Positions 5,307-28,301 of a DNA stretch of 31,310 bases are shown here, in pieces. The notes under the pieces were generated by a model. That model saw only the letters and a list, made by a program, of their open reading frames with translations. It ran no database searches and had not been told where the DNA came from. Position numbers and translations under genes: made by a program. Source of the stretch: a virus; IMG/VR virus record IMGVR_UViG_3300020595_002975, positions 1 to 31,310 of that record; one strand, given 5' to 3'. Position 1 is the first letter of the stretch. Each line of letters opens with the position of its first letter.

Positions 5307-5819
5307 ATGTTTGATATTCCCCTGTCAAAAAAACAAGTAGAAAAACAATTAAGCCAATATCAAAAAATAAACTATAACCAGTTTAGGTGGTGGAGAAGTT
5401 ATCAACCAAAGAATAAACCATTAGATAATCGTAAACCACTTCGTGAACGTATATTCAATGGTGATTTTGATTATTCATGTTATAAAGCCCAACAATACCA
5501 AGTCGAATATCAGCTAAATGATATATTAGAAGAATGTGAGATGGATTATGGTAAATATCTTGAAAAAACTTCTGTTATTAGGGCTCGAAGAAAACGTTTA
5601 ATTGAAGACTTTGAAAAAGATGAAGCTGAAAGGTTAAATTCTTTAACTATCGAATTCACAAAATATTTTAAATGTAATAGAGAACAAGTTGAAGAAGAAA
5701 TGTTAAAATGTAGTGGTTCTTTAATAGATCTTTATTATATTATAGAAGATAAATATAAAATAGTTCATGCCCCCTACCCTTTAAAGCGTAGAGGACGACC
5801 TAAAAAATTAAGTATATGA
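5307..5819 (+). CDS. Unknown protein with C-terminal AT-hook
   Basis: A 170-residue hydrophilic, helix-rich protein without a recognised fold. The C-terminus carries KRRGRPKKL (about 160-168), a clear AT-hook: the RGRP core flanked by basic residues binds the minor groove of AT-rich DNA. The middle (about 85-125) is rich in Arg/Lys/Glu and probably helical. Its stop overlaps the start of the DpdA-like gene by four bases, so the two are probably co-translated and may work together on DNA. It is the first gene after a candidate promoter. The functional link to DNA modification is inference from position. Confidence 0.8.
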   Translation: MFDIPLSKKQVEKQLSQYQKINYNQFRWWRSYQPKNKPLDNRKPLRERIFNGDFDYSCYKAQQYQVEYQLNDILEECEMDYGKYLEKTSVIRARRKRLIEDFEKDEAERLNSLTIEFTKYFKCNREQVEEEMLKCSGSLIDLYYIIEDKYKIVHAPYPLKRRGRPKKLSI

Positions 5820-6622
5820 AAGTAAGCCATGAAGTACCTCGCTGTTTATTAACAGCATCAACTGAATTTAATGATTATGATTATTGTTTACCTCACTTAT
5901 TAGACCAAGATGAGGAATATAAACAATATTTTATCAATGCCAGAGATAAAGGTAGGTATGTTATTATGGATAATTCACTTCATGAGTTAGGTGAAGCATA
6001 TGATTATAATAGATTACGTTATTGGGTAACTGAATTAGAACCAAATGAATTTATGGTACCTGATGTTTGGATGAATTGTCACCAAACAGCTGCTCAAGCT
6101 AAATATTGGTTACAATTTAAATTTCCTAAGAGAACTAAAAAAATAGCAGTAATCCAAGGTGAAGATAAAAACCAAGCATACTTATGTGCTAGTTTACTAC
6201 AGGGGTTAGGTTATGATAAACTATGTGTATCATATGGTGCTACTTGGTATAATGATTTTTTTCCACATAATAACCCAGATATGGGAAAAGCATTAGGTAG
6301 AGTACGATTTGTACAAGGTTTATTAAAGCTAAAACAGTTAAAAAATATTAAATTTCACTTATTGGGATGTTCAATACCTCAAGAATTTGGATGGTATAAT
6401 AACAACCCAAGAATAGAATCAATTGATACTTCTAATCCTGTAATGGCGGCTTTAGAAGGTATAGAGTATAAAGATCATGGTTTAAATAATAAGCCTAAAG
6501 CTAATATGAATGATCATTTTAATATTAAATTTGAAGACATCCAATATTTAAATATTATTCATAATACAACTAAATTCAGAGAAATAAATAATATTAAAAA
6601 AATAGATATATGGCAGAAGTAA
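5816..6622 (+). CDS. dpdA: DpdA/TGT-like DNA guanine transglycosylase
   Basis: A 268-residue member of the tRNA-guanine transglycosylase superfamily, shorter than bacterial Tgt (about 375). Landmarks in Tgt order are VIMDNS (Asp52, matching the base-recognition Asp in DSGG), VPDVWMN (Asp83), VIQGE (113-116, matching the VQGG loop), HLLGCSIPQE (about 181-190, matching the LMGVG strand), and ESIDTSNP (Asp204, the likely nucleophile). The Tgt C-terminal Cys/His zinc site is not seen, which fits phage DpdA proteins rather than tRNA enzymes. Phage DpdA swaps guanine in DNA for a 7-deazaguanine such as preQ0, protecting against restriction. The following queC, queD, queE and folE supply that base. 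The substrate assignment comes from family and context. Confidence 0.75.
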   Translation: MKVSHEVPRCLLTASTEFNDYDYCLPHLLDQDEEYKQYFINARDKGRYVIMDNSLHELGEAYDYNRLRYWVTELEPNEFMVPDVWMNCHQTAAQAKYWLQFKFPKRTKKIAVIQGEDKNQAYLCASLLQGLGYDKLCVSYGATWYNDFFPHNNPDMGKALGRVRFVQGLLKLKQLKNIKFHLLGCSIPQEFGWYNNNPRIESIDTSNPVMAALEGIEYKDHGLNNKPKANMNDHFNIKFEDIQYLNIIHNTTKFREINNIKKIDIWQK

Positions 6623-6795
6623 TAAAACACGCATTAGGGTTTTGTGGAGAGCACTTTCATCCAAATATTTGGACTCTTCTTATAGGGGGGTTTGGGATAT
6701 CAACTATATTTTCGTATGTTCGATTATATATAAAATGCAAATTTAAACAAGCGTTAGCCTATACGCGAAATACCTGGCAAATTTTAAATAAATAA
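6610..6795 (+). CDS. Small single-TM protein of unknown function
   Basis: A 61-residue frame overlapping the end of dpdA by 13 bases and ending three bases before queC. Residues about 18-38 (beginning NIWTLLIGGFGI) are hydrophobic enough for one membrane helix, followed by a basic tail. The tight fit between two real genes supports coding. No family is recognised, and it may be a short accessory membrane peptide. Confidence 0.5.
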   Translation: MAEVIKHALGFCGEHFHPNIWTLLIGGFGISTIFSYVRLYIKCKFKQALAYTRNTWQILNK

Positions 6796-6798
6796 ATT

Positions 6799-7590
6799 AT
6801 GGCACATTGTGTAGTAAGTTTAAGTGGTGGAATGGATAGTAGCACCCTATTGTTAAGAGCTATCGAAAAGTATGATACAGTAACAGGTATCTCATTTGAT
6901 TACGGTCAAAAACATAGAGTTGAACTTGAAAGAGCCCAACAATTAATTGATTACCTTGCAAGTAAAGGTCACAAAGTAAATTATCGTCAAATTAAACTAG
7001 ATGGTTTAGTAGATTTATTAGATTCAGCATTAACTGAAGGCGGGAAAGATGTACCTGAAGGACATTATGAACAAGATAATATGAAAGAAACAGTTGTTCC
7101 TAATAGAAATAAAATGTTTGCTTCTATTACTCAGGCAGTAGCATTATCTGTAGCAAATAAAACAGAAGAAACTTGTGATATCGCTTTAGGTATTCATGCG
7201 GGTGATCATGCAGTTTATCCTGATTGTAGACAAGAATTTAGGGATGCAGATGATGCAGCTTTTAGAATTGGTAATTGGGATGCAGATAGAGTAGGTTATT
7301 TTACCCCATATTTAGATACTGACAAATTTGGTATTTTACAAGATGGTGAAAAATTATGTAAAATTTTAAATATTGAATTCGATGAAGTCTATTCTAGAAC
7401 TAATACTAGTTATAAGCCTTTTCCTAGTGGGAACAGTGATTATAAATCTGCTTCATCTGTTGAAAGAATTGAAGCATTTATTGCTTTGGGTAGGAAAGAT
7501 CCTGTTCAATATGAAGACGAAACTGGTGAAGTTGATTATGAAATAGCAAAAGCTCATGTTGAGAAAGTGCTTGCTACTTATACTAAATAA
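6799..7590 (+). CDS. queC: QueC-like 7-cyano-7-deazaguanine synthase lacking the zinc cysteines
   Basis: A 263-residue PP-loop ATPase. SGGMDS (9-14) is the ATP pyrophosphatase loop; VPNRNKMF (100-107) and YPDCRQEF (140-147) are family motifs. QueC turns 7-carboxy-7-deazaguanine into preQ0 with ATP and ammonia, by way of an amide intermediate. Canonical QueC ends with four zinc-binding Cys (C-x8-C-x2-C-x2-C) just before V/TER. Here VERIEAF (221-227) is kept, but the four positions are Ser204 (one-residue shift), Asp214, Ser217 and Ser220, so no tetracysteine site exists. It is slightly longer than the usual roughly 230 residues. The enzyme may fold without zinc, may be altered in product (for example stopping at the amide), or may be inactive; neighbouring pathway genes argue against simple decay. 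Confidence 0.88.
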   Translation: MAHCVVSLSGGMDSSTLLLRAIEKYDTVTGISFDYGQKHRVELERAQQLIDYLASKGHKVNYRQIKLDGLVDLLDSALTEGGKDVPEGHYEQDNMKETVVPNRNKMFASITQAVALSVANKTEETCDIALGIHAGDHAVYPDCRQEFRDADDAAFRIGNWDADRVGYFTPYLDTDKFGILQDGEKLCKILNIEFDEVYSRTNTSYKPFPSGNSDYKSASSVERIEAFIALGRKDPVQYEDETGEVDYEIAKAHVEKVLATYTK

Positions 7591-7602
7591 TATGTATATT
7601 AA
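7570..7602 (+). promoter_or_regulatory. Weak Bacteroidetes-type promoter candidate
   Basis: CTTG at 7570-7573, 21 bases, then TATATTAA at 7595-7602. Both boxes deviate from consensus. It would give transcription into the small gene at 7629 and the tRNA that follows. Confidence 0.3.
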
Positions 7603-7628
7603 TAATAAAAAATATTAAGTATAAAGTA

Positions 7629-7772
7629 ATGGATTTAAATAGTCAGCAAAACGGTAATACCCAACTTAATAATGATAGAAATGCTTTTAACTCAAAAGTT
7701 AGTAAGTATAGTAAGTTAGGTAATACCAAAAAGGTACAATGGAGCGATAAAAGAAGATATCGTAACATTTAA
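7629..7772 (+). CDS. Small basic hypothetical protein (47 aa)
   Basis: An ATG frame of 47 codons, beginning MDLNSQQNGN and ending KRRYRNI. It is Asn/Gln-rich at the N-terminus and Lys/Arg-rich at the C-terminus, with no Cys. It occupies the space between queC and the tRNA and uses the same A/T-ending codons as its neighbours. No function can be assigned. The C-terminal basic patch could bind nucleic acid. Confidence 0.5.
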   Translation: MDLNSQQNGNTQLNNDRNAFNSKVSKYSKLGNTKKVQWSDKRRYRNI

Positions 7773-7778
7773 AGGATT

Positions 7779-7851
7779 TGTCTCGTGGTGTAATTGGTAA
7801 CACGTCTGGTTTTGGTCCAGAAGAGTATAGGTTCGAAACCTGTCGAGACAA
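7779..7851 (+). tRNA. tRNA-Gln (anticodon TTG)
   Basis: A full cloverleaf of 73 bases. The acceptor TGTCTCG (7779-7785) pairs with CGAGACA (7844-7850), and the D stem GTG pairs with CAC (7788-7790/7801-7803). Anticodon stem TCTGG/CCAGA encloses TTTTGGT with anticodon TTG at 7812-7814; the T stem ATAGG/CCTGT encloses TTCGAAA. The discriminator is A7851 and CCA is not encoded. U1-A72 fits glutamine tRNA. It reads CAA, a common codon in these AT-rich genes. Glutamine tRNA is not a queuosine substrate, so its place in the que cluster does not suggest a tRNA-modification link. Confidence 0.95.
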
Positions 7852-7878
7852 CAATTAATTTTAAAAAATAAATAAGTT

Positions 7879-8049
7879 ATGAGTAAAAACGAACAAGAAC
7901 TTCCAGATGCTTACTTACACCAAAGAGTAAGTTTTATGAAATCTACTATTAGAATAGTAGGTTATGGTTTTCTTCCTTTTAATTTGGAAACCGCAGCTAT
8001 TATTCTTATATTGAGTGAGATAATTGGAATAATAGAGGAATTAGTTTAA
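7879..8049 (+). CDS. Small conserved-type phage membrane protein (56 aa)
   Basis: Fifty-six residues: a polar start (MSKNEQELPD), a basic middle (QRVSFMKSTIRI), and a hydrophobic C-terminal half from about 28 to 55 that includes IILILSEIIGIIEELV. The pattern of a basic KSxIRI segment followed by a hydrophobic helix ending in EELV resembles a short protein common in T4-like marine phages. Function is unknown, and membrane association is likely. Confidence 0.65.
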   Translation: MSKNEQELPDAYLHQRVSFMKSTIRIVGYGFLPFNLETAAIILILSEIIGIIEELV

Positions 8050-8051
8050 AT

Positions 8052-8168
8052 ATGAATAAAAAAAATATCTCTAAAAAGTTAATAAGAGAACAACTTTTAT
8101 TTGAAAAATTAAAAGTAAATCCTAACTATGATTTAATAAGAAAATTACAACAAAAATTAGATAAATGA
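8052..8168 (+). CDS. Very small hypothetical protein (38 aa)
   Basis: A 38-codon frame from ATG, two bases after the previous stop, whose TGA overlaps the thioredoxin start (ATGA at 8165). It is Lys/Leu-rich and probably a single helix. The overlap at both ends with real genes supports translation. No function is visible; it could act mainly in translational coupling. Confidence 0.5.
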   Translation: MNKKNISKKLIREQLLFEKLKVNPNYDLIRKLQQKLDK

Positions 8169-8410
8169 AAAAAATACTTTATTTTAGTGCAGCATGGTGT
8201 AGTCCATGTAAAACATTAGGTCCTATTATGGAATCATTATCAGGCCAAATTAACTATCAAAAAATTGATGTTGATACTAATCAAGATCAATCTATTAAAT
8301 ATGGAATTAGAAATATACCTGCTTTAGTTTTATTAGAAAACGGAGAAGTTAAAGATAAAAAAGTAGGAGTATTATCAAAAGATCAAATTTTAAATTTTTA
8401 TAATGGGTAA
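8165..8410 (+). CDS. Thioredoxin-like protein
   Basis: An 81-residue compact thioredoxin fold. The redox site WCSPC spans 11-15 and the cis-proline loop NIPA has Pro52; IDVDTNQD matches the strand before it. It is shorter than classical thioredoxin (about 105) and close in size to T4 NrdC-like glutaredoxins. It probably reduces a cytosolic phage or host enzyme such as ribonucleotide reductase, which is not in this window. It overlaps the genes on both sides (four bases before, eight bases into the QueD-like gene), placing it in the modification operon. Confidence 0.9.
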   Translation: MKKILYFSAAWCSPCKTLGPIMESLSGQINYQKIDVDTNQDQSIKYGIRNIPALVLLENGEVKDKKVGVLSKDQILNFYNG

Positions 8411-8867
8411 ATATCAATCAAGTAAAATATTTGATGGTTTTTCTACTGTATTTAGACAATGGAAAGCAGAAACAACTCATTGTAAATTTATACATGGTTA
8501 TGGGATTTCATTTAAAGTATATTTTGAAGGTGAATTAGATGAAAGGAATTGGGTATGGGATTTTGGTGGAATGAAAAGAGCTAAAACTCAAATTGATGGT
8601 AAATCCCCTAAAGAATGGATGGATTATATGTTTGATCATACTTTAATTATAGCTGAAGATGATCCTTATCTTAAAGCATTTGAACAAATGGGTGAAGCAG
8701 GAGTAGCCCAAGTAAGAATAATACCAGCTACTGGTGCTGAAAAATTTGCTGAATATATTTATAAGAAGCTTAATGAATTTGTTAAAATTGAAACTCAAAA
8801 TAGAGTAAAAGTTACTAAGGTTAAGTTTATGGAGCATGGGAAAAATGCTGCGTATTATGTAGAATAA
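8403..8867 (+). CDS. queD: QueD-like 6-carboxytetrahydropterin synthase, variant metal site
   Basis: A 154-residue protein of the PTPS/QueD fold, longer than E. coli QueD (about 120). Cys27 and His31 in HCKFIHGYG match the catalytic Cys and first His of the C-x3-HGH motif, but the second His is Tyr33. The upstream AAH zinc His is also absent (TVFRQW region). His79 in FDHTL fits the catalytic LDHxxL His and Glu144 the substrate-binding Glu. His26 could be a replacement ligand. QueD makes carboxytetrahydropterin from dihydroneopterin triphosphate, the FolE product, on the way to 7-deazaguanine. FolE and QueE lie just downstream. The family call is good; activity with a changed zinc site is uncertain. 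Confidence 0.75.
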   Translation: MGKYQSSKIFDGFSTVFRQWKAETTHCKFIHGYGISFKVYFEGELDERNWVWDFGGMKRAKTQIDGKSPKEWMDYMFDHTLIIAEDDPYLKAFEQMGEAGVAQVRIIPATGAEKFAEYIYKKLNEFVKIETQNRVKVTKVKFMEHGKNAAYYVE

Positions 8868-8908
8868 AAGTTATAATAGTGAATAAAAAACCACTTTAAA
8901 AAATTTAT

Positions 8909-9697
8909 ATGGAACACAAACAACTTAAAAGAATCGAAGATTATAATAAAAATCTTCCAATTGTAGAAATTTATACCGCGGTACAAAGTGAGGGAAGTAG
9001 AGCAGGCTACCCAACTGTTGTAATTAGAACTACGGGTTGCACACATCGTTGCTATTTTGGTGAAGGTGGATGGTGTGATTCTTGGTATACTTCAATCCAC
9101 CCAGAAAAAGGAAAATTTAATTTTAATAATATTATTAAAATGTATGAGGATAATCCTCATATAAAAGAAATGATGTTAACTGGGGGATCACCTACTATGC
9201 ATTCTGCTTTAGTAAATGAATTAACCCACTTTGCAAATGAAAAAAATATCTTTATTACTATTGAAACTGAAGGAAGTCATTTTTTACCGACTGATTATCC
9301 TATTAATTTGCTTTCTATTAGTCCTAAGTTCTCCAATAGTGTACCTGTACTTGGGGTATCTACACCTCAAGGAGCTGTTACAGACCAAAGAATGATTGAT
9401 AGACATAATAAGCTTAGGCTTAATTATGAAGCAATTAAACAATCAATAGCTTACCACTCAGATTATCACATTAAACCTGTATGGGATGGTAAAGATAAAA
9501 AAGCATTAGCTGAAATTATGGAATGTATTTCTATATTAGATGTTAAACCTGAAAAAGTATGGTTTATGCCTGCAGGTGATTCTAGAGAAGCATTGTTTAG
9601 ATCTTATCCTATATTATTTGATTGGGTTAGAGACAATGGTTATAGAATGACTTGGAGACCTCATATCATAGCATTTGAAGACCAACGTGAAGTATAG
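8909..9697 (+). CDS. queE: QueE-like radical SAM 7-carboxy-7-deazaguanine synthase
   Basis: A 262-residue radical SAM protein. Cys44, Cys48 and Cys56 form C-x3-C-x7-C (CTHRCYFGEGGWC) instead of the usual C-x3-C-x2-C, an insertion in the cluster loop; some QueE proteins are known with unusual spacing. LTGGSPT (90-96) matches the GGEP SAM-binding motif with Ser for Glu, and SISPKFS (about 136-142) matches the conserved SPK of QueE. QueE contracts carboxytetrahydropterin to 7-carboxy-7-deazaguanine. The N-terminal VEIYTAVQSEGSRAG segment is the typical substrate-loop start. It sits between QueD-like and FolE in one run of genes, matching the pathway. Confidence 0.85.
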   Translation: MEHKQLKRIEDYNKNLPIVEIYTAVQSEGSRAGYPTVVIRTTGCTHRCYFGEGGWCDSWYTSIHPEKGKFNFNNIIKMYEDNPHIKEMMLTGGSPTMHSALVNELTHFANEKNIFITIETEGSHFLPTDYPINLLSISPKFSNSVPVLGVSTPQGAVTDQRMIDRHNKLRLNYEAIKQSIAYHSDYHIKPVWDGKDKKALAEIMECISILDVKPEKVWFMPAGDSREALFRSYPILFDWVRDNGYRMTWRPHIIAFEDQREV

Positions 9698-9834
9698 TGG
9701 ATAAGCAAGAAGCCCTTCGTATATTGGACGAAGTAAAAGAAAATGTAAATACTTGTTGTGCCATTACAATGGAACCTGATGAAGTATTAGTATTATTAGA
9801 TAAATTAGAAAGTTATATAAATGAACAAACGTAG
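9697..9834 (+). CDS. Short hypothetical protein with GTG start (45 aa)
   Basis: The GTG overlaps the last base of the queE stop, and the frame ends 14 bases inside folE. The product is acidic and Leu-rich, with Cys-Cys at residues 20-21 and a probable C-terminal helix. The filling of an otherwise 120-base gap and the tight overlaps favour coding, but length and start codon leave doubt. No homology is recognised. Confidence 0.4.
   Translation: MDKQEALRILDEVKENVNTCCAITMEPDEVLVLLDKLESYINEQT
9715..9733 (+). promoter_or_regulatory. Inverted repeat with promoter-like box before folE
   Basis: CTTCGT (9715-9720) and ACGAAG (9728-9733) form a perfect 6-base inverted repeat around ATATTGG. The centre also contains TTCGTATATT, the recurring promoter-associated string, here 96 bases before folE. 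It could be an operator, a hairpin or chance inside a small gene. No TTTG box stands at the right distance. Confidence 0.25.
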
Positions 9835-10513
9835 AAAAATTCACGAAGAATTAGAAGTAGTAAAAGTAGGTTATGCAAATGGAGTTGCTGAAGGATTTCC
9901 TTTTACAGATAAACAAAAGGAAAAAATAATTAATAATGCTGAAAAAGCTTATGGTAAGTTTTTAGATGCATTAAAGTGTGATTGGAGAAATGATCCGAAT
10001 TCTATAGAAACCCCTCGTAGAGTAGCTAAGGCTTATGTTAATGATTTATGGGAAGGTAGATACACAGCGATGTCTCCTATTACATCATTCCCATCGGATG
10101 GTTATGATGGTGTTATTATAGAACGTAATATACCGTTAACTTCAATGTGTTCTCACCACCATCAAACTATTGGAGGAGTAGTTCATATAGGTTATATATC
10201 AGGAGAAAATGGTCAAGTAATTGGTTTATCTAAATTAAATAGGATTGTAGAGTTATTTGGTCGAAGGGGAGCTATTCAAGAACAATTAACATCTGCTATC
10301 CATAATGCTGTAGATAAAATTACTGAAAATAATAAAGGAGTTATTGTTACTATAGTTGGGACTCACAATTGTGTATCTTGTAGAGGAGTTAAACATGCTG
10401 GAGCAGCAATGGTAACTACTAAAGCATCAGGAGCTTTTAGAGAAGATTCAAATCAAGCACGTAAAGAATTTTTTGATTCATTAAAAATAAACAATGGAGG
10501 ACACAACATCTAA
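9821..10513 (+). CDS. folE: GTP cyclohydrolase I (FolE)
   Basis: A 230-residue type I enzyme that converts GTP to dihydroneopterin triphosphate, the first step towards 7-deazaguanine (and folate). Zinc ligands Cys110 and His113 are in MCSHHHQT, and Cys184 is in HNCVSCRG. GLSKLNRIVELFGRR (135-149) and RGVKHAGA are family motifs. The N-terminal helices (ETPRRVAKAY) are intact and the length is normal. Its place after queD and queE strongly suggests that it feeds that pathway, not folate. The next gene overlaps it by 20 bases. Confidence 0.95.
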   Translation: MNKRRKIHEELEVVKVGYANGVAEGFPFTDKQKEKIINNAEKAYGKFLDALKCDWRNDPNSIETPRRVAKAYVNDLWEGRYTAMSPITSFPSDGYDGVIIERNIPLTSMCSHHHQTIGGVVHIGYISGENGQVIGLSKLNRIVELFGRRGAIQEQLTSAIHNAVDKITENNKGVIVTIVGTHNCVSCRGVKHAGAAMVTTKASGAFREDSNQARKEFFDSLKINNGGHNI

Positions 10514-11015
10514 AATATTTCTTAAATGGTCTGATATACAGGAGTATATTGAAATATTATCATTAAAAATATTAACAGACTATCCAAACATAGATTCAGT
10601 AATGGGAATACCTAGAGGTGGTTTAATTCCTGCAGTAATGATTTCACATGAATTAGGAATACCATTAGTTATACATCCAACTAGAAATACTTTAGTTATA
10701 GATGATATTAATGATACAGGGTATACTCTAGATAAAGCACCAGGAGTTTATCATGCCGTTTTACATCATAAACCAACATCAAAATTTAAACCTAATTTTT
10801 ATGCCGAAGAAGCAGGTGAAGAATGGATAGTTTATCCTTGGGAAAAAGAAGATTCAGAAGCTTTACCCGATTATTTCCAATCAGATGAATTTTTAGAATT
10901 TGCAGAAGGAGAAGATAACTCTGTGGCATGGTCAGAAGAAGATAATAAATTACATACTATTGGAGGATTAACCATGCCTAAAGAAAACACAAATAAATTA
11001 AATAAAAATGAATAA
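10494..11015 (+). CDS. Purine phosphoribosyltransferase-like protein
   Basis: A 173-residue type I PRTase. VIDDINDTG (68-76) is the PRPP loop with two Asp, GIPRGG (38-43) the pyrophosphate loop, and EEWIVYPWEK (about 108-117) resembles xanthine/guanine PRTase ends. The hood is short and the last 50 residues are acidic and low in complexity. The likely reaction is joining a purine base with PRPP. It overlaps folE by 20 bases and precedes a MazG-like gene, so it may serve purine supply, or may act on a deazaguanine base; the latter is speculation. Xanthine/guanine PRTase is the best guess. Confidence 0.75.
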   Translation: MEDTTSKIFLKWSDIQEYIEILSLKILTDYPNIDSVMGIPRGGLIPAVMISHELGIPLVIHPTRNTLVIDDINDTGYTLDKAPGVYHAVLHHKPTSKFKPNFYAEEAGEEWIVYPWEKEDSEALPDYFQSDEFLEFAEGEDNSVAWSEEDNKLHTIGGLTMPKENTNKLNKNE

Positions 11016-11577
11016 ACACCCAAAACTAGAATCTAATCCTTGTTGTGCACATGATTTAGAAAGTGTACCTTTTGTAGATGAAGTAGAAGAATTTAATAAA
11101 ACATTTGGAAAACCGAATAAATATGAACCCACAATACCAGAAAAAAAAGAATGGCAATTCGTATATGACTTTATACTTGAAGAATTGGAAGAATATAGAC
11201 AGGCTTGCGAAAACGGAGACATCGTGGAAGTTTTGGATGCTCTGTGTGATATTGCTTATGTTTCCCTTGGGAACGGTACTATGTTACACGGCCTTAAAGA
11301 TAAGATATGGCCAGCCTATCAAGAAGTACAAGGAAGCAATATGTCAAAGTCTTGTATCACTGAAGAAGAGGCCATGGAAACTGTCACCCTCCGTTCTAAA
11401 GAACAAAATGAGCCATGTCACTATGAAAAGGTGGAGGAGAAATTTGTAGTATATAGAACTAGAGATAGAAAGGTTATGAAATCAATTAAATATTATAGAC
11501 CTGATCTTAATCAATTCTTTACAGAACAAGAAGTAGATAAATGTAAACCTAATTATGATCCTGGGACTATTATATAA
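11008..11577 (+). CDS. MazG/HisE-like NTP pyrophosphohydrolase
   Basis: A 189-residue protein with an all-alpha NTP-PPase core. EELEEYRQ (58-65) gives the E-E-x2-E metal motif, and EVLDALCDIAYV (74-85) gives the second helix with Asp77 and Asp81. Such enzymes hydrolyse (d)NTPs to monophosphates and are common in marine phages. The C-terminal part (from about 115) contains a tail rich in charged residues and Tyr, not assigned. It overlaps the PRTase by eight bases and abuts the polymerase gene (one-base overlap of stop and start). Bases about 11210-11420 use more C/G-ending codons than neighbouring genes. Confidence 0.8.
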   Translation: MNKHPKLESNPCCAHDLESVPFVDEVEEFNKTFGKPNKYEPTIPEKKEWQFVYDFILEELEEYRQACENGDIVEVLDALCDIAYVSLGNGTMLHGLKDKIWPAYQEVQGSNMSKSCITEEEAMETVTLRSKEQNEPCHYEKVEEKFVVYRTRDRKVMKSIKYYRPDLNQFFTEQEVDKCKPNYDPGTII

Positions 11578-13286
11578 TGTATAAAAAAGCATATTCTACT
11601 AGATTAGGGGGAAATAAATATAAAATTCATCTATGGGATCATGCTGGATATGACGAAATTGAGTGGTATAATTATGCTTACCAAGAATGTTCAGATGAAG
11701 ATGCTACTCATAAAGGTTTAAGTGGAGAATCTCTTAAAAAGATTTATAAATGGGATAAAAATACTTCTAATCTTCATTTTCATGATATAACTCCATATCA
11801 AAAATTTCTAATAGAAAAATATGGTACTAATGATAAACCTTCTACTGGCCATAAAGAATTATTTTTTGATATTGAATGTGAAATAGGAGGGGCATTAACT
11901 GAAGAATATATTGAAAGAGCTCCTATGCCTATTACAACAATAGCATATTGGGATAAAACATCAGATACTTGGGTTATATTAGTTCGTGATGATAAAAGTG
12001 AATTAAAAAGAACAAAAGCTAAAAATAAAGAAATTGTTCCAGTTAAAACTGAACAAGAATTATTAGCAACCTTTTTAGAACGTTTTAGAGAAATTGATCC
12101 TGATATTTTAATTGGTTATAATAGTGATTATTTTGATATACCTTATTTATATTATAGAATGTGTAATGTATTAGGTAAAGAATGGGCAGATCAATTATCC
12201 CCTTTAGGTAAAGTTAATGCTAAAAAAAATAACCAATATTTTTATAAAAGAAACCAATTTGTAGATATTATGGGAGTTGAATCTCTAGATTATATGAGAT
12301 TGCATAAAAAGTATAGTTGGAAAGATGAACCTAGTTGGAAATTAGATGCTATTGGGGAAAAATATACAGGTATAGGTAAAATAGACTATGAAGGAAATTT
12401 AGATCAATTATTTAAGATTGACCTACAAAAATATATTCAGTATAATTTCCGTGATGTTGAAATATTAAAGTTATTAGATGAAAAGCTTCAATATATAGCT
12501 TTAACTAAAAACCTATCACATAAGGGAAAGCATAATTATAGTGAAGTTTATGCTAATAGTAAAACCCAAGACGGTGCAATTTCAGCTTATTTATTAAGTC
12601 AAAATATAATTCCCCCTCCTAAAGATCCTAATCCTAGAAGTAAAAAAGGATACGCTGGGGGTTATCTTTTTTGTCCTAAAGCAGGGTTATATAAATACAT
12701 GTTTGATGAAGATTTAACATCACTATATCCATCTATTATTATGTCTTTAAACATAGGTAGAGAAACATTTAAGGGCCGTATTATAGATGCTGATGATCGT
12801 AATAATAGATTAGGCCTTAATGATTTGAAAGAACGTGACCAAGATGAAGAATTATTAGTTGAAAATGCTAAGGGACGCCAAACTAGAGTTAACGTTAGTA
12901 AGTTAATTTCTATGGTAGAACAAAATAATTTAGCTATGTCTGCTAATGGTTGCTTATTTACTACTGATAGAGAATCTACCTTATCTACTGTTCTAAATAA
13001 ATGGTTTGATGAAAGAGTAGAATATAAAAATAAAATGAAAAAAGCATATAAAACAGGAAATAAAGAAAAAGGAGCATATTTTTATTTAATGCAATATACT
13101 ATGAAGATTTTACTTAATAGTTTATATGGGGCTACTGCTTTACCTTCATTTAGATATGGAATGAGTTTATCTGTATTAAGTGAAGCAATTACCTTATCAG
13201 GCCACAGAATTATACAAGAATCAGCTTTATGTGCTAATAGACATATGAATAAAGTAATAAAAGGGCAAATAAAGTTAGAAATATGA
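11577..13286 (+). CDS. Family B DNA polymerase, N-terminal part (exonuclease, motifs A and B)
   Basis: 569 residues equal to roughly the first two thirds of T4 gp43. Exo I is FFDIE (Asp98, Glu100), Exo II is IGYNSDYFD (about 180-188), and Exo III is YNFRDVE (about 288-294). Motif A is DLTSLYPSI (Asp379) and motif B is KILLNSLYG (Lys510, Asn514, Tyr517). The frame ends shortly after motif B and lacks the catalytic DTDS of motif C, which is on a separate gene at 13897. Together the parts give 880 residues, close to T4 gp43 (898), so a two-subunit polymerase is likely. The stop overlaps the start of a cupin gene (ATGA). No homing endonuclease is visible at the split. Confidence 0.93.
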   Translation: MYKKAYSTRLGGNKYKIHLWDHAGYDEIEWYNYAYQECSDEDATHKGLSGESLKKIYKWDKNTSNLHFHDITPYQKFLIEKYGTNDKPSTGHKELFFDIECEIGGALTEEYIERAPMPITTIAYWDKTSDTWVILVRDDKSELKRTKAKNKEIVPVKTEQELLATFLERFREIDPDILIGYNSDYFDIPYLYYRMCNVLGKEWADQLSPLGKVNAKKNNQYFYKRNQFVDIMGVESLDYMRLHKKYSWKDEPSWKLDAIGEKYTGIGKIDYEGNLDQLFKIDLQKYIQYNFRDVEILKLLDEKLQYIALTKNLSHKGKHNYSEVYANSKTQDGAISAYLLSQNIIPPPKDPNPRSKKGYAGGYLFCPKAGLYKYMFDEDLTSLYPSIIMSLNIGRETFKGRIIDADDRNNRLGLNDLKERDQDEELLVENAKGRQTRVNVSKLISMVEQNNLAMSANGCLFTTDRESTLSTVLNKWFDERVEYKNKMKKAYKTGNKEKGAYFYLMQYTMKILLNSLYGATALPSFRYGMSLSVLSEAITLSGHRIIQESALCANRHMNKVIKGQIKLEI

Positions 13287-13630
13287 AATATGAAGTAGAA
13301 AGCAGACCTTGGGGTATGTACGAAGTATTATTAGATTCCCCTGAATGTAAGGTAAAACGAATTACTGTTGCTCCGGAATCAAGATTATCATATCAATATC
13401 ACTATAAAAGAAAAGAAACTTGGACTATTATTAAAGGTAATTTAACTATTATTTTAGATGATGAAAAACTATTTAGGGGACCAGGTCAATCAATAAGAAT
13501 ACCATTAGGAGCTAAACATAGAGCTTGGAATGAAACTGATGAATTAATTCAATTTATAGAAGTACAAACTGGAGATTATTTTGGAGAAGATGATATAATA
13601 AGAATAGAAGACGATTATAATAGAAAATAA
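13283..13630 (+). CDS. Cupin: mannose-6-phosphate isomerase type II-like
   Basis: A 115-residue protein matching the isomerase domain of bifunctional AlgA/ManC enzymes: RPWGMYEVL at the start, KRITVAPESRLSYQYHYKR, ETWTIIKG, IPLGAKHRAWN and GEDDIIR near the end. The cupin metal site is Gln38, His40, Glu45 and His79. It would interconvert mannose-6-phosphate and fructose-6-phosphate, feeding GDP-mannose for the glycan genes after 26327. The guanylyltransferase half is absent. It is lodged between the two halves of the DNA polymerase, with a four-base overlap to the first, an odd place for a sugar enzyme. Confidence 0.85.
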   Translation: MKYEVESRPWGMYEVLLDSPECKVKRITVAPESRLSYQYHYKRKETWTIIKGNLTIILDDEKLFRGPGQSIRIPLGAKHRAWNETDELIQFIEVQTGDYFGEDDIIRIEDDYNRK

Positions 13631-13631
13631 T

Positions 13632-13895
13632 ATGGCATTAAAAAAACAATCAATAAGAAAAGGAATGGATATCTTAGTTAATGAAGATAGAATTTCTAAA
13701 GAAGAATTAATTATAATTAGTGAATCTTGGGATGAAAGACAAGAAAGATTCTTCAGAAAAATGTTAAAACAAGGAGGTGAATTTAAAATTAAAGGTATTA
13801 AATATAAAATATTTTTAAAAGAAAGATCAGATTTAAATTCTCAAGGAGAAAAACCTATAAACCTCCCACCTATTTCTGGAGAGAGATCATTTTAG
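13632..13895 (+). CDS. Small basic hypothetical protein between polymerase halves
   Basis: An 87-residue protein that I do not recognise. It is strongly basic in the first 60 residues with a likely helix (ISKEELIIISESWDERQERF) followed by short strands (GEFKIKGIKYKIFL), and a Pro-rich end. There is one base between it and the cupin stop, and one base before the second polymerase part. The basic character fits nucleic-acid binding, and a role in polymerase assembly is conceivable, but nothing in the sequence shows it. Confidence 0.7.
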   Translation: MALKKQSIRKGMDILVNEDRISKEELIIISESWDERQERFFRKMLKQGGEFKIKGIKYKIFLKERSDLNSQGEKPINLPPISGERSF

Positions 13896-13896
13896 T

Positions 13897-14832
13897 ATGA
13901 AGCATTTAGAAGAAACACCTTGGTGGATTTGTGATAAAGAAGATACAAATTATTGTGCTTATATGGATACAGATTCAGTATATTTAGATGCAGAACCCAT
14001 ATTAAAACATTTGTATCCTAATTTTGAATCTTATAGTGATAAAGAAAAAGATGATAAGTTAGAAAAAATTGCAATGGAATATCAAGACATTATAACAGAT
14101 TATTATAATGTGTTAGCTAAAGAATGCTTCAATGTTTCTAATCATAGATTAGAAATGAAAACAGAATGTGTTATCCGTTCCGCTTATTTTAGAGCTACTA
14201 GAAGATATGCACAGTGGATTACTAAACAGGAAGGTATAGAAAAAGAAAATCTAGATATTAAAGGTTTAGAATTTATGAAAGCTAATTTTCCACCTATATT
14301 AGGTGATTTTTTTCATAATATTTTACAACAAGTATTAAAAGGAGAAGAAAAAGATAGTATAATTAATCAAATAAAAGTATTTAAAAAACAAATACTAGGA
14401 GGTGAAATACCTTTAACTAAATTAGGTAACCCTACTTCAGTTAAAAAATTAGAAAAATATTCAGGAACAGGAGCTAGAGCAGGGGAAATGTTTACTGAAA
14501 TATTAAAGGGTGCTCCTGCTCCTGTAAGAGCAGCTATCCGTTATAATGATTTATTAAGACTATGGCAATTAGATAGAAAATATAATTTAATTACTATGGC
14601 GGATAAAGTTAAATGGATTTATTTAAAAGATAATCCTTATAAAATAGAAGCTTTAGCCTATCAAAACTATGAAATGCCTGATAAAATAAAAAATTTTTTA
14701 GACATTTATGCTGATAGACAAAAAGTATTTGATTCAATATTATTAAATAAATTAGAAGGGTTTTTTAGTGATTTAGGTTGGTCTTTAGATTTAAATCCTT
14801 ATACAAATGCTTTAAAATCCTTTGAAATCTAA
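13897..14832 (+). CDS. Family B DNA polymerase, C-terminal part (motif C, palm/thumb)
   Basis: 311 residues continuing the polymerase of 11577-13286. Motif C is YMDTDSVYL (Asp24, Asp26), the second catalytic metal site. KTECVIRSAYFRATRRYA (about 88-105) matches the following palm strands (KxY-like region), and the rest is thumb. It has its own ATG, one base after the previous stop, and has no exonuclease or motif A/B, so it cannot work alone. The break lies between motifs B and C, where the fingers return to the palm. Splits of gp43 genes are known in some T4-like phages, mostly linked to homing endonucleases. Confidence 0.9.
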   Translation: MKHLEETPWWICDKEDTNYCAYMDTDSVYLDAEPILKHLYPNFESYSDKEKDDKLEKIAMEYQDIITDYYNVLAKECFNVSNHRLEMKTECVIRSAYFRATRRYAQWITKQEGIEKENLDIKGLEFMKANFPPILGDFFHNILQQVLKGEEKDSIINQIKVFKKQILGGEIPLTKLGNPTSVKKLEKYSGTGARAGEMFTEILKGAPAPVRAAIRYNDLLRLWQLDRKYNLITMADKVKWIYLKDNPYKIEALAYQNYEMPDKIKNFLDIYADRQKVFDSILLNKLEGFFSDLGWSLDLNPYTNALKSFEI

Positions 14833-15635: not shown

Positions 15636-16103
15636 ATGTTTAAATTAATCGAGAGCTTCGGCCTCACAAAACTAAATGATATGAGTACATTACAATTATT
15701 AGAAAGACACTTAAGTCCTTTCGACATCCTATTTAGGAATCACTTTAAATCTGACAGCGTATTTAATCCTGTTACAAACACAAAACACCCACACCCACTT
15801 AATATTTTCTTCGATGATAAAGGACTTCACTTTGAAGTTGCCTGTACAGGGTTAACTAAAGGAGATGTTATCCTTGATATTGAAGGGGATACTTTAAAAA
15901 TAAACTATAAAAAACCAGAAGAGGAAGATTTCCATCAAGGGATGATCCATAATGGTTTATCTAAAAAATCATTTGATTTAAGATACAAAATTGCACCTAA
16001 ATTTAATTTGTTAAAAACAGATGCAACTTTAGAAAATGGATTACTAGAAATTTTTATACCTTTAGCTGAAGAAGCTAAACCAAAGTCAATAAAAATAAAA
16101 TAA
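15636..16103 (+). CDS. Small heat-shock protein (Hsp20)
   Basis: A 155-residue alpha-crystallin-type holdase. The core runs from about 54 (PLNIFFDDKGLHFEVACTGL) through GDVILDIEGDTLKINY to the LENGLLEIFIPL strand, followed by the C-terminal IKIK anchor. It would keep unfolded phage or host proteins soluble. The start is uncertain: ATG 15636 gives 15 extra residues, and ATG 15681 (MSTLQLLERHLSPFD) resembles the start of other phage Hsp20 proteins. If 15681 is right, a hairpin at 15651-15665 lies in the leader. It is the first of three chaperone genes here. Hsp20 is common in marine T4-like phages. Confidence 0.9.
   Translation: MFKLIESFGLTKLNDMSTLQLLERHLSPFDILFRNHFKSDSVFNPVTNTKHPHPLNIFFDDKGLHFEVACTGLTKGDVILDIEGDTLKINYKKPEEEDFHQGMIHNGLSKKSFDLRYKIAPKFNLLKTDATLENGLLEIFIPLAEEAKPKSIKIK
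15651..15665 (+). promoter_or_regulatory. UUCG-capped hairpin near the Hsp20 start
   Basis: GAG-a-GC TTCG GC-CTC: five G/C-rich pairs with one bulged A and a stable TTCG tetraloop. It lies within the first codons if translation begins at 15636, or 16 bases before the alternative ATG at 15681. It is unusually stable for such AT-rich DNA and might affect translation, but it could also be simple coding sequence. Confidence 0.3.
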
Positions 16104-16139
16104 AAGTTATTTAAAAAAGCGTGTCCTAGCGCAATATTG

Positions 16140-16153
16140 TTCGTATATTCACG
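16140..16153 (+). promoter_or_regulatory. Recurring TTCGTATATTCACG element before 16175
   Basis: Shares TATATTCACG and the downstream CAAATAAA-to-ATG layout with the promoter before 5307. No TTTG box is present about 20 bases upstream (GTGT instead), so promoter strength is doubtful. It would start the 106-residue gene and the GroES-GroEL pair. Confidence 0.35.
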
Positions 16154-16174
16154 TCCAAATAAATAAAGTTATAT

Positions 16175-16495
16175 ATGTCTAGAAAACCAAAAAGTCTCAC
16201 AGTAATTTCGGATCCTTTATTAGAACCATATTATGTCACTAAAGATGATATGTGTTACACAGTTAATGAAAGGATTATCCCTAATGAAGATCACTTTAGA
16301 TCTAAAGGTAAAGGTACTGAATATTCAAAACCACAAGGGTATTATTGTAATTTTAAACAAGCATTAGAAAAAATATCTAATGAAAAATTACATACTAAAA
16401 AAGAATATTCTTCTTTACAAACATTTTTACAAGAATTTAAAACAATAGAAAATAATATTAAAAATTATACAGATGGAATTAGAAGCACTATTTGA
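16175..16495 (+). CDS. Hypothetical phage protein (106 aa)
   Basis: Starts MSRKPKSLTVISDPLLEPYY, followed by a Tyr-rich middle with TEYSKPQGYYCNF and a helical C-terminal half (KQALEKISNEKL onward). The pattern of a short strand-rich start and a helical end resembles small conserved proteins of marine T4-like phages, but I cannot name a family or function. It overlaps groES by 23 bases, so it is probably co-translated with the chaperonin pair. Confidence 0.75.
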   Translation: MSRKPKSLTVISDPLLEPYYVTKDDMCYTVNERIIPNEDHFRSKGKGTEYSKPQGYYCNFKQALEKISNEKLHTKKEYSSLQTFLQEFKTIENNIKNYTDGIRSTI

Positions 16496-16835
16496 TGCCG
16501 TTATAGTAAAACCTATAGAATCAAAAGAAACTACTTATGGTAATATCATTGTACCAGATTTAGGAAAAGAAAAAAATGAAATGGGGGAAGTTATAGCTGT
16601 AGGTCCAGGAAAACCAACAATAACAGGAGATTTTATACCTACTATACTAAAAGAAGGTGATACTGTAGTACTACCTACAATGGGTTTTACTAAATTACCC
16701 TATAATGGAGAAGAATATTATGTAGGACCTGAAAATCAGGTTTTGGCAAAATTAAACCAAACAGTAACAATTGAAGATGCTTTAGCTGAAACAAAATTAA
16801 CAGAAATAGAAAAAGAACATTTAACAGATATTTAA
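16473..16835 (+). CDS. groES: GroES-like co-chaperonin
   Basis: A 120-residue Cpn10 fold protein, longer than cellular GroES (about 97). The first strand FDAVIVKPI, the mobile loop with ETTYGNIIVPD (19-29), GEVIAVGPGKP (38-48), and EGDTVVLPTMGFTKL are in family order. The C-terminal 25 residues (from about 98) are an acidic extension not found in bacterial GroES. It would cap the phage GroEL encoded one base downstream. The mobile loop differs from the usual GG-IVLP hairpin, possibly matched to the phage chaperonin. Confidence 0.9.
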   Translation: MELEALFDAVIVKPIESKETTYGNIIVPDLGKEKNEMGEVIAVGPGKPTITGDFIPTILKEGDTVVLPTMGFTKLPYNGEEYYVGPENQVLAKLNQTVTIEDALAETKLTEIEKEHLTDI

Positions 16836-16836
16836 T

Positions 16837-18456
16837 ATGAGTAAACAAATAGAATTTGGTTCAGAGGCAAGAAACCAACTAGTAAAAGGAATTGATATTC
16901 TAGCTGATGCTGTTGTATCAACATTAGGACCTAATGGTAGAAATGTAGTTATAGCAAATGAACAAGGTACACCCCAATCAACAAAAGATGGTGTAACTGT
17001 AGCTAAATCTATATCACTAAAAAATCCTAATCAAGAATTAGGAGTTCAATTAGTAAAACAAGCAGCAATTAAAACTGCTGAGAAAGCAGGAGATGGTACA
17101 ACTACTTCTACTTTATTAGCTAGAGAAATGATTAAAGGAGGGTTAAATGCTCTAAATAATGCTGAAAATGCAGTTCAAATTAAAAGAGATATTGATAAAA
17201 CAGTTGAAATAGTAGTACAAAATTTAAGAACCAAAATTTCAGAAGATATTTCAGGTGAAGAACAATTAGAACAAATTGCTACAATTTCTTCAAATAATGA
17301 TTCCGAAACTGGGAAATTAATATCGACAGCAATTGAAAAAGTAGGAATGGAAGGGGTAGTACATATTGAAGAATCTAAAACAGGAGAAACTTATTTAGAA
17401 ACTGTTGAAGGGATGCAATTTGATAGAGGATTTAAATCTCCATATTTTGTTACTGATAATAATAGTATGACTTCAGTTTTAGAAAATCCTATGATTTTAA
17501 TCTTGGATCAAAAATTAACTCAAGTAAAAGATTTACTTCCTATTTTAGAAGCAGTATCTTCCCAAGCAAAATCTTTATTAATAATTGCTGAAGATATTGA
17601 TGGTGAAGCTTTAGCAACTCTTATTGTAAATAAAATGAGAGGTACTATGAAAGTATGTGCTGTTAAATCCCCTGAATTTGGAGATAGAAGAAAATTAGTT
17701 TTAGAAGATATAGCCATAACAACAGGTGGTCAAGTATTTAGTAAAGAAAAAGGAATGAAACTTGATAAGTTTAGTTGGGATTGGTTTGGTGAAGCTAGAA
17801 ATATTACAGTAGAAAAAAATGTAACTACTATAGTAGATGGTAAAGGAAATATTGAAGCAATAGAAAATAGAATTGAGGAATTACAAAAACAGATTGAAAA
17901 GTCCCAAACTCCATTTGAAACTGAAAAATTACAAGAAAGGTTAGCTAAATTTGTAGGAGGAGTAGCTATTATCCATGTAGGTGGGAATACTGAGACAGAA
18001 ATGAAAGAGAAAAAGGATAGAGTTGATGATGCTTTACATGCTACAAAAGCAGCTATTGAAGAAGGTATAATACCTGGGGGTGGAACAGCATTATTATATG
18101 CTTCATCAGGATTAGAAGTTAATTCAACAGGAGCAGCTATTGTAAAACAAGCATGTGCAAAACCATTCAATCAAATTTTAGTTAATGCTGGTCATGAAGA
18201 AGTTACTGCTACAATTATAGCAGATGGTATGATTAATTCTGGAAATGATGGTTGGTTAGGTTATAATATTAAAACTGAAGAAACAGTTGATATGAAAGAA
18301 GAAGGTATTATTGACCCAACTAAAGTAGCTAGAACAGCATTACAGAATGCAGCATCAGTTGCTGGTACTGTATTATTAACAGAATGTACAGTAGTAAATG
18401 AACCTAGTGATGATAAACAACAACCCCAAATAGACCCTATGATGGGGATGATGTAA
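16837..18456 (+). CDS. groEL: GroEL-like chaperonin
   Basis: 539 residues, full length for a group I chaperonin (about 545). TLGPNGRNVV (29-38), Asp51 in TKDGV, and GDGTTTSTLLA (Asp86) form the ATP site. The equatorial return has DDALHATKAAIEEGIIPGGG, and the tail ends in PMMGMM like the Gly/Met repeat of bacterial GroEL. The apical part appears complete. It is a diverged, probably working chaperonin; the phage may need it for its own capsid or replication proteins. It lies in the same run as GroES and Hsp20, between clamp and clamp loader. Phages with both GroES and GroEL are uncommon. Confidence 0.97.
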   Translation: MSKQIEFGSEARNQLVKGIDILADAVVSTLGPNGRNVVIANEQGTPQSTKDGVTVAKSISLKNPNQELGVQLVKQAAIKTAEKAGDGTTTSTLLAREMIKGGLNALNNAENAVQIKRDIDKTVEIVVQNLRTKISEDISGEEQLEQIATISSNNDSETGKLISTAIEKVGMEGVVHIEESKTGETYLETVEGMQFDRGFKSPYFVTDNNSMTSVLENPMILILDQKLTQVKDLLPILEAVSSQAKSLLIIAEDIDGEALATLIVNKMRGTMKVCAVKSPEFGDRRKLVLEDIAITTGGQVFSKEKGMKLDKFSWDWFGEARNITVEKNVTTIVDGKGNIEAIENRIEELQKQIEKSQTPFETEKLQERLAKFVGGVAIIHVGGNTETEMKEKKDRVDDALHATKAAIEEGIIPGGGTALLYASSGLEVNSTGAAIVKQACAKPFNQILVNAGHEEVTATIIADGMINSGNDGWLGYNIKTEETVDMKEEGIIDPTKVARTALQNAASVAGTVLLTECTVVNEPSDDKQQPQIDPMMGMM

Positions 18457-20294: not shown

Positions 20295-20518
20295 ACGAAA
20301 AATTATTCAACATGTTAAAACTATCTGCAGAGGCAGATAAAGCAAAAGCATTATTATCTCTTGAATTATTAGGAGAAAAAGCTGTAGGAATTGGAGACCA
20401 TTCTACAGGAGATTTTTACAAAAATGCTGAAGAAGCATTAAATTCTTTAGTAGATGCTGATGATAGAATATCAACCTTAGACAAATACTTTGCTAAAACA
20501 CTCTTACTAAATGAGTGA
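20291..20518 (+). CDS. Hypothetical helical protein (75 aa)
   Basis: A 75-residue Ala/Leu-rich protein that is probably an all-helical hairpin (KLSAEADKAKALLSLELLG, then NAEEALNSLVDADDRIS). It has no membrane segment or metal motif. It occupies the place where T4 has regA after gene 62, but it does not resemble RegA. It overlaps genes on both sides (ATGA before, eight bases after). No function is assigned. Confidence 0.7.
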   Translation: MNEKLFNMLKLSAEADKAKALLSLELLGEKAVGIGDHSTGDFYKNAEEALNSLVDADDRISTLDKYFAKTLLLNE

Positions 20519-20912
20519 TTCAGTTAAAAATTATTTTGGAAATATGAAAAAGAAAAAAACTATAGAAAGTAGTAAAGATAATGCAATAGAAGTATTTGAA
20601 TTAGAATATCCAATATTAGCAGATGAATTTAGACAAATCCAAAAAGAAATGTATAAAATGTTTGCTCGTAAACATATGGATTATGGTTTAAATAATATTG
20701 CTTTAGGTGGTGATTTAAATAATAATGATGATAAGAAATTTTCTTTAACTGGTTTATGTATTAGACTTACAGATAAAATTTCACGTTTAAAAAATTTATT
20801 AATTAATGGTAGATCATTTGTTAAAGGTGAAGGTATGGAAGATACATTTATAGATATTGCTAATTATGGGATAATTGGTCTTTTAGTAGGCCGTAATAAA
20901 TGGAAAAAATAA
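20511..20912 (+). CDS. DUF1599-like protein (nucleotide-modification-associated)
   Basis: A 133-residue protein with the DUF1599 signature: RKHMDYGLNNIALGGD (about 53-68), then LCIRLTDKISRLKNLL (about 83-98), and DIANYGIIGLL near the end. The His/Asp/Asn pattern suggests a helical metal-dependent fold. The family has been linked to modified-nucleotide metabolism by gene context, but its reaction is not known to me. In this phage it could act in the deazaguanine or dNTP pathway; that is inference. The N-terminal 35 residues are basic and probably flexible. Confidence 0.75.
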   Translation: MSDSVKNYFGNMKKKKTIESSKDNAIEVFELEYPILADEFRQIQKEMYKMFARKHMDYGLNNIALGGDLNNNDDKKFSLTGLCIRLTDKISRLKNLLINGRSFVKGEGMEDTFIDIANYGIIGLLVGRNKWKK

Positions 20913-24869: not shown

Positions 24870-24870
24870 T

Positions 24871-25314
24871 ATGAATTTTGATACATTAAAAGAATGTTCT
24901 AGATGTGGGTCTGATGCCTGCTATAGTCAAGAAGTAACTAAAGATGTTACTATTGAATTGTGTTATGGTTGTGGGTTTCAATCAAACTCTATTATGGTTA
25001 GTGGAAGTGAATTTCTTATAGAACAAATGGGATTATTACCTGAATTACATAAAGAATTAATGGATGAAGAAGAAGATTCGGGTAAAATTTGGATGCCTAC
25101 TACAATTAATTTAGAAGATAAGGGAATGGTATTCGCTGATGGTACATCAAAAAATAATTGGAGATGGGCTGGAGTTAAAGCTGTCCCTATTAAGGATGAA
25201 GAAAAAGAAAAATATAAAGATAAAAAGTTTAAACCCGATATGTCTACTATACAACATTTTGAAGAACGTGATTTTATGGAAGCTCTTTCTTATATTGGGG
25301 TATTACCTAGTTAA
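24871..25314 (+). CDS. Zinc-ribbon hypothetical protein
   Basis: 147 residues. Cys9-x2-Cys12 and Cys31-x2-Cys34 (CSRCG, CYGCG) form a zinc ribbon, with an extra Cys17. The rest is acidic, with a strand-like middle (WMPTTINLEDKGMVFADG, about 71-88) and a helical end. The zinc ribbon may bind nucleic acid or a protein partner. It sits inside the glycosyltransferase run but shows no sugar-enzyme motif. No family name is offered. Confidence 0.75.
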   Translation: MNFDTLKECSRCGSDACYSQEVTKDVTIELCYGCGFQSNSIMVSGSEFLIEQMGLLPELHKELMDEEEDSGKIWMPTTINLEDKGMVFADGTSKNNWRWAGVKAVPIKDEEKEKYKDKKFKPDMSTIQHFEERDFMEALSYIGVLPS

Positions 25315-25317
25315 ATT

Positions 25318-26324: not shown

Positions 26325-26326
26325 TT

Positions 26327-28300: not shown

Positions 28301-28301
28301 A

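Follow-up and report, generated by a model that had tools for sequence, protein, structure and literature searches.

A predicted phage 7-deazaguanine DNA-modification cluster with a zinc-less QueC and a Gpt-type phosphoribosyltransferase

Enterobacteria phage 9g, CAjan and Rosebush encode FolE, QueD, QueE and QueC together with a DpdA-type enzyme; their guanine replacement is partial, and restriction evasion by guanine modification is known from such phages (PMC6884629). In Campylobacter phage CP220, 100% of the deoxyguanosine (dG) is replaced by dADG, as cited in PMC8306585. Here we analyzed a viral DNA of 31,310 bases from a marine phage source, IMG/VR record IMGVR_UViG_3300020595_002975 (hereafter the window), which is a fragment of a genome. 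It carries a predicted 7-deazaguanine DNA-modification cluster, in which a dpdA-type gene stands together with genes for the pathway from GTP to 7-cyano-7-deazaguanine (preQ0).

The locus shares many genes with Flavobacterium phage vB_FspM_immuto_2-6A (MW353175, hereafter immuto), including those for DpdA (35% identity), a QueC without zinc site (69%), QueD (71%), QueE (82%), FolE (59%), a Gpt-type phosphoribosyltransferase (PRTase, 53%) and a pyrophosphohydrolase (76%). Different from the window, immuto has no homolog of the AT-hook protein encoded upstream of dpdA, and its QueC gene lies ∼11 kb from that of QueD. Immuto also has extra genes, for QueF, a formyltransferase and a thymidylate-kinase-like protein beside dpdA; in a second locus type, close to that of immuto, dpdA is followed by genes for a formyltransferase, a thymidylate-kinase-like protein and QueF. 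CP220 also possesses a DpdA-like protein (35%), QueC and a Gpt-type PRTase; however, its genes are scattered and its QueC retains the zinc cysteines. QueC is canonical in CAjan and a Rosebush-type phage, and the DpdA proteins of 9g, CAjan and Rosebush were not among the relatives of the window DpdA in our search of phage records.

We propose that the cluster makes a 7-deazaguanine from GTP and inserts it into the phage's own DNA, with guanine salvaged by the Gpt-type enzyme and with a QueC devoid of its zinc site; we put the probability of this reading at about 0.8. FolE, QueD, QueE and QueC would turn GTP into preQ0 or the amide intermediate ADG, the QueC functioning without the four-cysteine zinc site. 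DpdA would then excise guanine from the finished DNA and put the deaza base in its place. One guanine would be freed per exchange, and the Gpt-type PRTase would return it to GMP and then to GTP, the substrate of FolE. Clusters for 7-deazaguanine are known; what is new here is a zinc-less QueC set common to phages and bacteria, and a link between Gpt and FolE that points to guanine recycling.

DpdA and the preQ0 pathway genes

An earlier note, made from the letters of this DNA, had read positions 5307–10513 as a probable phage 7-deazaguanine DNA-modification cluster. The full GTP-to-preQ0 set next to a DpdA-type transglycosylase supports this reading. All four steps of the pathway are covered by domain matches (FolE, QueD, QueE and QueC), and the assignment of these genes in the note was borne out by Pfam and PHROG matches.

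The TGT model of Pfam (PF01702), run against the window, gave no match for the 5816–6622 protein at E 0.001. Its closest relatives in phage records are an immuto protein annotated as DpdA (35%, 3e-46) and a hypothetical protein of the CP220 type (35–37%, 2e-40). With 45 relatives as input, the AlphaFold2 (AF2) model reached a pLDDT of 94.6 and a pTM of 0.91, and its top matches in the PDB were the TGT structures 1q65 and 6ygl and the bacterial DNA preQ0 insertase DpdA, 7ui4 (TMq 0.53–0.60). This structure prediction and homology search had been set in advance as the test of the gene; TGT and DpdA came out as the best match, and no unrelated fold did. The single faint PDB sequence match of the DpdA profile to a transglycosylase was also to 7ui4, on the HLLG...SxDxxxP motif.

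Residues D52, D83, Q114, G184 and D204 are invariant across the 45 relatives; their equivalence to TGT residues is drawn from motif order and fold, not from residue superposition. Asp52, Asp83 and Asp204 had already been picked out as Tgt landmarks, correctly, and the absence of the Tgt tRNA zinc site was confirmed, the window DpdA sequence containing no TGT-like CxCxxC motif. Taken together, the model and the conserved residues support a DpdA-type transglycosylase of TGT fold, with a predicted action on DNA guanine. The subfamily DpdA3, which we take to be that of complete dG replacement, presumably includes the DpdA of CP220; with its 35–37% identity to the CP220-type proteins, the window DpdA is a candidate member. 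The tree of DpdA sequences was built rapidly and its reference branches are very long, that of CP220 being long and unsure; the placements of CP220, phiST and locus L237 in it were therefore not relied on.

From gene content, we predict preQ0 or the amide ADG as the final base (dPreQ0 or dADG in DNA). Neither Pfam nor immuto QueF queries found QueF in any of 20 long contigs of the window type, the longest of 156 kb, whereas the immuto query was positive in 6 of 6 immuto-type records. Likewise, the formyltransferase was found in none of 10 long window-type relatives, and all four immuto-type controls were positive. A modification of the preQ1 or formyl-preQ1 type is thus not supported, the window itself being a fragment. 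Of the marks of an archaeosine-type (dG+) modification, namely a Gat-QueC fusion, ArcS or a QueF-like enzyme, the window QueC (263 residues) has no Gat domain and no QueF was found; ArcS-type enzymes were not searched for. Since the window DpdA resembles that of CP220, the replacement level is probably high. By analogy with the other phages mentioned above, the modification may serve restriction evasion; the GATC count of the window (56 versus 70 by chance) is slightly low and uninformative.

The QueC without a zinc site

Canonical QueC (PF06508 cluster 1) is characterized by the motifs SGGxDS, YxQxHxxE, VPxRN and YPDC and an essential tyrosine in the zinc region, as defined in 2026 for the Escherichia coli enzyme (PMC13329287). 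The window QueC keeps SGGMDS, YGQKHRVE, VPNRN, YPDC and the TSY tyrosine, the essential tyrosine being taken as the residue after the first zinc cysteine. Different from canonical QueC, its C(x)8CxxCxxC zinc motif is gone: all four cysteines are substituted, by Ser204, Asp214, Ser217 and Ser220. These four residues are invariant in 23 diverse aligned zinc-less homologs. The earlier note had identified the gene as QueC, which is right, and had overlooked the loss of the zinc site.

The four zinc cysteines are kept in the QueC of nine other phages, including CP220 (dADG), CAjan and a Rosebush-type phage (dPreQ0), and Dp-1 and HVTV-1 (dPreQ1); in that alignment, only the QueC proteins of the window, of immuto and of their kin are without them. 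Among phage loci we counted 75 distinct zinc-less QueCs. Two loci (L060 and L061) have a canonical four-cysteine QueC in its place, in a cluster that is otherwise similar. Outside phages, zinc-less QueC (48–59% identity) was found in cultured Thiotrichales (Cysteiniphilum, Facilibium and Fangia) and in Legionella gresilensis. None of these seven bacterial assemblies has another full-length QueC, and all seven encode QueA of the queuosine pathway. The exchange for canonical QueC at two loci and the role as sole QueC in QueA-bearing bacteria suggest that the zinc-less protein still makes preQ0. As a simple rule, zinc loss is ruled out as the cause of dADG, because the QueC of the dADG phage CP220 keeps its cysteines.

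QueD and QueE are also unusual. The window QueD keeps the catalytic Cys27, Asp78-His79 and Glu144; two of the three canonical zinc histidines are replaced (FRQW, HGY), and a new, nearly invariant histidine precedes the catalytic cysteine. QueE has an insertion common to the window, immuto and phiST. In Thiotrichales with queD and queE beside queC, QueD shows FRQW and HGY in place of the two zinc histidines, and QueE has a lengthened cysteine motif (CTHRC, 6–8 residues, then C), both as in the phages. Since the Thiotrichales proteins share these oddities, the QueC, QueD and QueE variants appear to travel as a set; phiST and phi3ST:2, which have the QueD variant without a zinc-less QueC, are an exception. 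In five bacterial loci from Cysteiniphilum, Facilibium and Thiotrichales isolates (L272, L268, L269, L274 and L275), zinc-less queC lies divergent to a phage-like queD-queE pair.

The Gpt-type phosphoribosyltransferase and guanine salvage

The PRTase matches PDB 1vdm (1e-11), Sulfolobus GpT-1 (5e-9) and E. coli XGPRT (3e-4), and carries the phosphoribosyl-pyrophosphate motif VIDDINDTG; its match to Pfam Pribosyltran is slightly under the cut-off. It is present in 45 of 45 close loci that hold QueE and the pyrophosphohydrolase, and has relatives in immuto, in CP220 and its kin, and in the phiST group.

The association extends to other phages. In Brevundimonas phage MaInes, a Gpt-type gene lies directly 3′ of that for FolE, QueC, QueD and QueE being encoded elsewhere in the genome; in PA5oct, the Gpt-type gene adjoins a QueE-like gene. 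In Pseudomonas phage Quinobequin-P09, Vibrio phage VpKK5 and Sphingomonas phage MMDA13, the annotated FolE begins with a Gpt domain of ∼115 residues (hhalign 98.6%, 6e-16), with RGG, DD..D(T/S)G and W(I/V)V(F/W)PWE kept; tblastn detected this domain at the N terminus in related phages of Xanthomonas, Stenotrophomonas and Variovorax as well. The Gpt-like domain at the N terminus of the annotated 'GTP cyclohydrolase' of Queuovirinae-like phages (L250:2893-3786, L251:3498-4400 and L252:2989-3876) is itself unannotated. As a query independent of these phages we used E. coli Gpt. It matched 16 of 50,697 phage records: 11 are annotated records of true phages, every one of which has 7-deazaguanine genes, two are unannotated faecal scaffolds, and three look bacterial. 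That the PRTase is an accident of the region was rejected in view of its conservation and of the fusions to FolE.

Base exchange of the TGT type releases guanine, FolE uses GTP, and Gpt converts guanine to GMP; on this ground, and because Gpt is fused to FolE or lies beside 7-deazaguanine genes in several unrelated phages, the PRTase most likely recycles the guanine displaced by DpdA and refills GTP for FolE. More tentatively, at somewhat less than even odds, we propose the wider statement that DpdA phages encode a guanine-recycling loop through a Gpt that is separate, adjacent or fused to FolE, joined in this lineage by an alternative QueC/QueD/QueE set with lost or altered zinc sites that is common to Thiotrichales. 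Among the papers searched, none contained both 'DpdA' and 'phosphoribosyltransferase', which is no proof of novelty.

Several observations weigh against the proposed pathway as a whole. Canonical QueC reportedly needs zinc (PMC13329287). On the two unannotated faecal scaffolds, Gpt occurs with no Que genes nearby, and nine immuto-type loci have no Gpt match. The window DpdA is only 35–37% identical to the CP220-type proteins, so that a high replacement level is an extrapolation. Gene content was read from a 31-kb fragment, and ArcS-type enzymes were not searched for elsewhere.

Alternative readings and the conserved gene run

The zinc-less QueC might halt at the amide ADG or modify a protein, in which case the cluster would not be a preQ0 maker. 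The zinc ligands are lost in nearly all relatives, CP220, with its related DpdA, carries dADG (PMC8306585), and there are proteins of the QueC fold that now serve protein modification (PMC13329287). However, since no zinc cysteine is lost from the QueC of CP220, loss of the zinc site and dADG do not go together; moreover, the catalytic motifs defined for QueC are intact, the immuto-type phages have the zinc-less protein alongside QueF, whose known substrate is preQ0, and it is the sole QueC of the QueA-bearing bacteria. We consider this alternative unlikely. A preQ0 maker could also serve tRNA queuosine and not DNA: the same four enzymes make preQ0 for that purpose, the zinc-less set presumably does so in Thiotrichales, and a tRNA gene lies inside the run. 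However, the transglycosylase has no TGT zinc site, and in sequence it is related to DpdA-like proteins of phages and not to tRNA TGT; no QueF was found in the long relatives, though bacterial TGT uses preQ1; and tRNA-Gln(TTG) is not a queuosine tRNA. A role in queuosine is thus highly improbable.

Another route would bypass base exchange. The Gpt-type enzyme would make preQ0 monophosphate, the deaza base would enter DNA through the polymerase after the action of kinases and a reductase, and the pyrophosphohydrolase would remove dGTP. Such a route would account for the conservation of the pyrophosphohydrolase and for the total loss of dG in CP220, and a thymidylate-kinase-like gene does lie beside dpdA in immuto-type clusters. 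It would, however, make a conserved DpdA with invariant catalytic residues superfluous, and in the fusions found the Gpt domain is joined to FolE and never to a kinase or polymerase. The PRTase also keeps a lysine and a WI...PWE motif, which we take to be the guanine contact in E. coli XGPRT. Direct incorporation is therefore distinctly improbable, and we prefer base exchange by DpdA with salvage of guanine.

A further question is whether the AT-hook protein works with DpdA by recruiting it to DNA. All but one of 69 close relatives have a homolog encoded upstream of dpdA, often overlapping it (49 of 75 have a spacing between −30 and +60 nt). In several more distant contigs, homologs of 32–41% identity cluster with dpdA in changed order, and the RGRPKK tail is kept in most of those with 36–41% identity, being lost in the L237 type. 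However, immuto has DpdA without such a homolog, and although 12 of 18 immuto-type records do have one, the cases examined lie 8–16 kb away from dpdA, and neither of two sequences inspected has the hook. The coupling to dpdA claimed earlier thus holds for nearly all close relatives and fails in immuto and some of its kin; the same facts weaken the protein as an obligatory partner, and we regard a recruiting role as possible but less likely than not. The AF2 model (pLDDT 87.8) had no PDB fold match and one faint viral match, and the sequence had no match among the 50,697 phage records. In a 138-kb relative (L247, the record of L075), the AT-hook homolog has an in-frame stop and dpdA is intact.

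The run occupies 5307–11577 on a single strand, with neighbours that overlap or almost touch (Table 1), and is followed by a split gene for a family-B DNA polymerase. Within 5307–10513, the coordinates and assignments given earlier for the open reading frames (ORFs) and the tRNA were all correct, including the 61-residue membrane protein and the thioredoxin; we add the 56- and 45-residue ORFs. The core genes of the cluster thus stand as described, whereas its 3′ end does not, since the PRTase and pyrophosphohydrolase genes there had been missed.

Table 1. Features of the gene run in the window
Feature	Coordinates	Strand	Evidence or remark
AT-hook-tailed helical protein, 170 residues	5307..5819	+	4-nt overlap with dpdA
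DpdA-type DNA guanine transglycosylase (predicted), 268 residues	5816..6622	+	phrog_19058 1.8e-43; AF2 fold
61-residue protein, one hydrophobic segment	6610..6795	+	hydropathy peak 1.5; in 42/55 relatives with DpdA and QueE
Zinc-less QueC (7-cyano-7-deazaguanine synthase variant), 263 residues	6799..7590	+	PF06508 1e-37
Degenerate QueC zinc site, Cys to S204, D214, S217, S220	7408..7458	+	
tRNA-Gln (TTG)	7779..7852	+	ARAGORN
56-residue single-pass membrane peptide	7879..8049	+	hydropathy peak 2.0; in 54/55 relatives with DpdA and QueE
Thioredoxin, WCSPC	8165..8410	+	PF00085 8e-17; in 53/55 relatives with DpdA and QueE
QueD variant (6-carboxytetrahydropterin synthase type)	8403..8867	+	PTPS 2.5e-15; phrog_2389 6e-42
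QueE (7-carboxy-7-deazaguanine synthase), Cx3Cx7C cluster motif	8909..9697	+	phrog_2076 3e-52; PDB 5tgs 3e-8
Conserved 45-residue ORF, GTG start	9697..9834	+	in 42/55 relatives
FolE, GTP cyclohydrolase I	9821..10513	+	PF01227 1e-42
Gpt-type purine phosphoribosyltransferase	10494..11015	+	20-nt overlap with folE; PDB 1vdm 1e-11
PRA-PH/MazG-type nucleotide pyrophosphohydrolase	11008..11577	+	PF01503 8e-11

A scan of IMG/VR gave 171 stretches encoding relatives of the window DpdA, of which 80 were retrieved (69–88% identity). In the retrieved loci, the order AT-hook protein, DpdA, membrane protein, QueC, membrane peptide, thioredoxin, QueD, QueE, FolE, PRTase, pyrophosphohydrolase and polymerase is mostly constant. 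With synteny seen across dozens of related viral contigs, the run is not a chance association. QueC is present in all 55 relatives holding DpdA and QueE, and the pyrophosphohydrolase in all 41 loci of the window type and in 60 of the 62 of the immuto type. The tRNA-Gln(TTG) gene was found in 21 of 35 relatives scanned, inside or adjoining the QueC-thioredoxin interval.

The polymerase is encoded in two ORFs, 11577–13286 and 13897–14832, which match phrog_262 positions 70–567 and 565–843, respectively. Where complete in close relatives, the first ORF is 558–593 residues long, and the C-terminal part, where it was found, always has an ORF of its own; a 4-nt overlap joins the two in loci L049 and L051, and the more distant L280 has a single ORF of 888 residues. 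Between the halves (13283–13895) lie a mannose-6-phosphate isomerase-type cupin (PF01050, 4e-28) and an 87-residue ORF without Pfam match; no homing endonuclease was recognised there. Elsewhere in the window are phage Hsp20, GroES and GroEL genes (15636–18456), a DUF1599 protein ('nucleotide modification associated domain 1', 2.6e-8; 20511–20912) with a possible tie to DNA modification, and a sugar module (22132–30773) that comprises glycosyltransferases, an aminotransferase and a nucleotide-sugar epimerase; the sugars might be added to the virion, to DNA or to the surface of the host.

A QueC with the catalytic core but without the zinc site directly tests the role of the zinc that has been reported as required; in living bacteria, this variant also seems to sustain queuosine formation. 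Base exchange across a genome must free guanine and use GTP in comparable amounts. If the proposed loop is true, a salvage enzyme tied to FolE would explain how guanine replacement is afforded, and would suggest a role, open to experiment, for genes that have until now been listed simply as 'phosphoribosyltransferase'.

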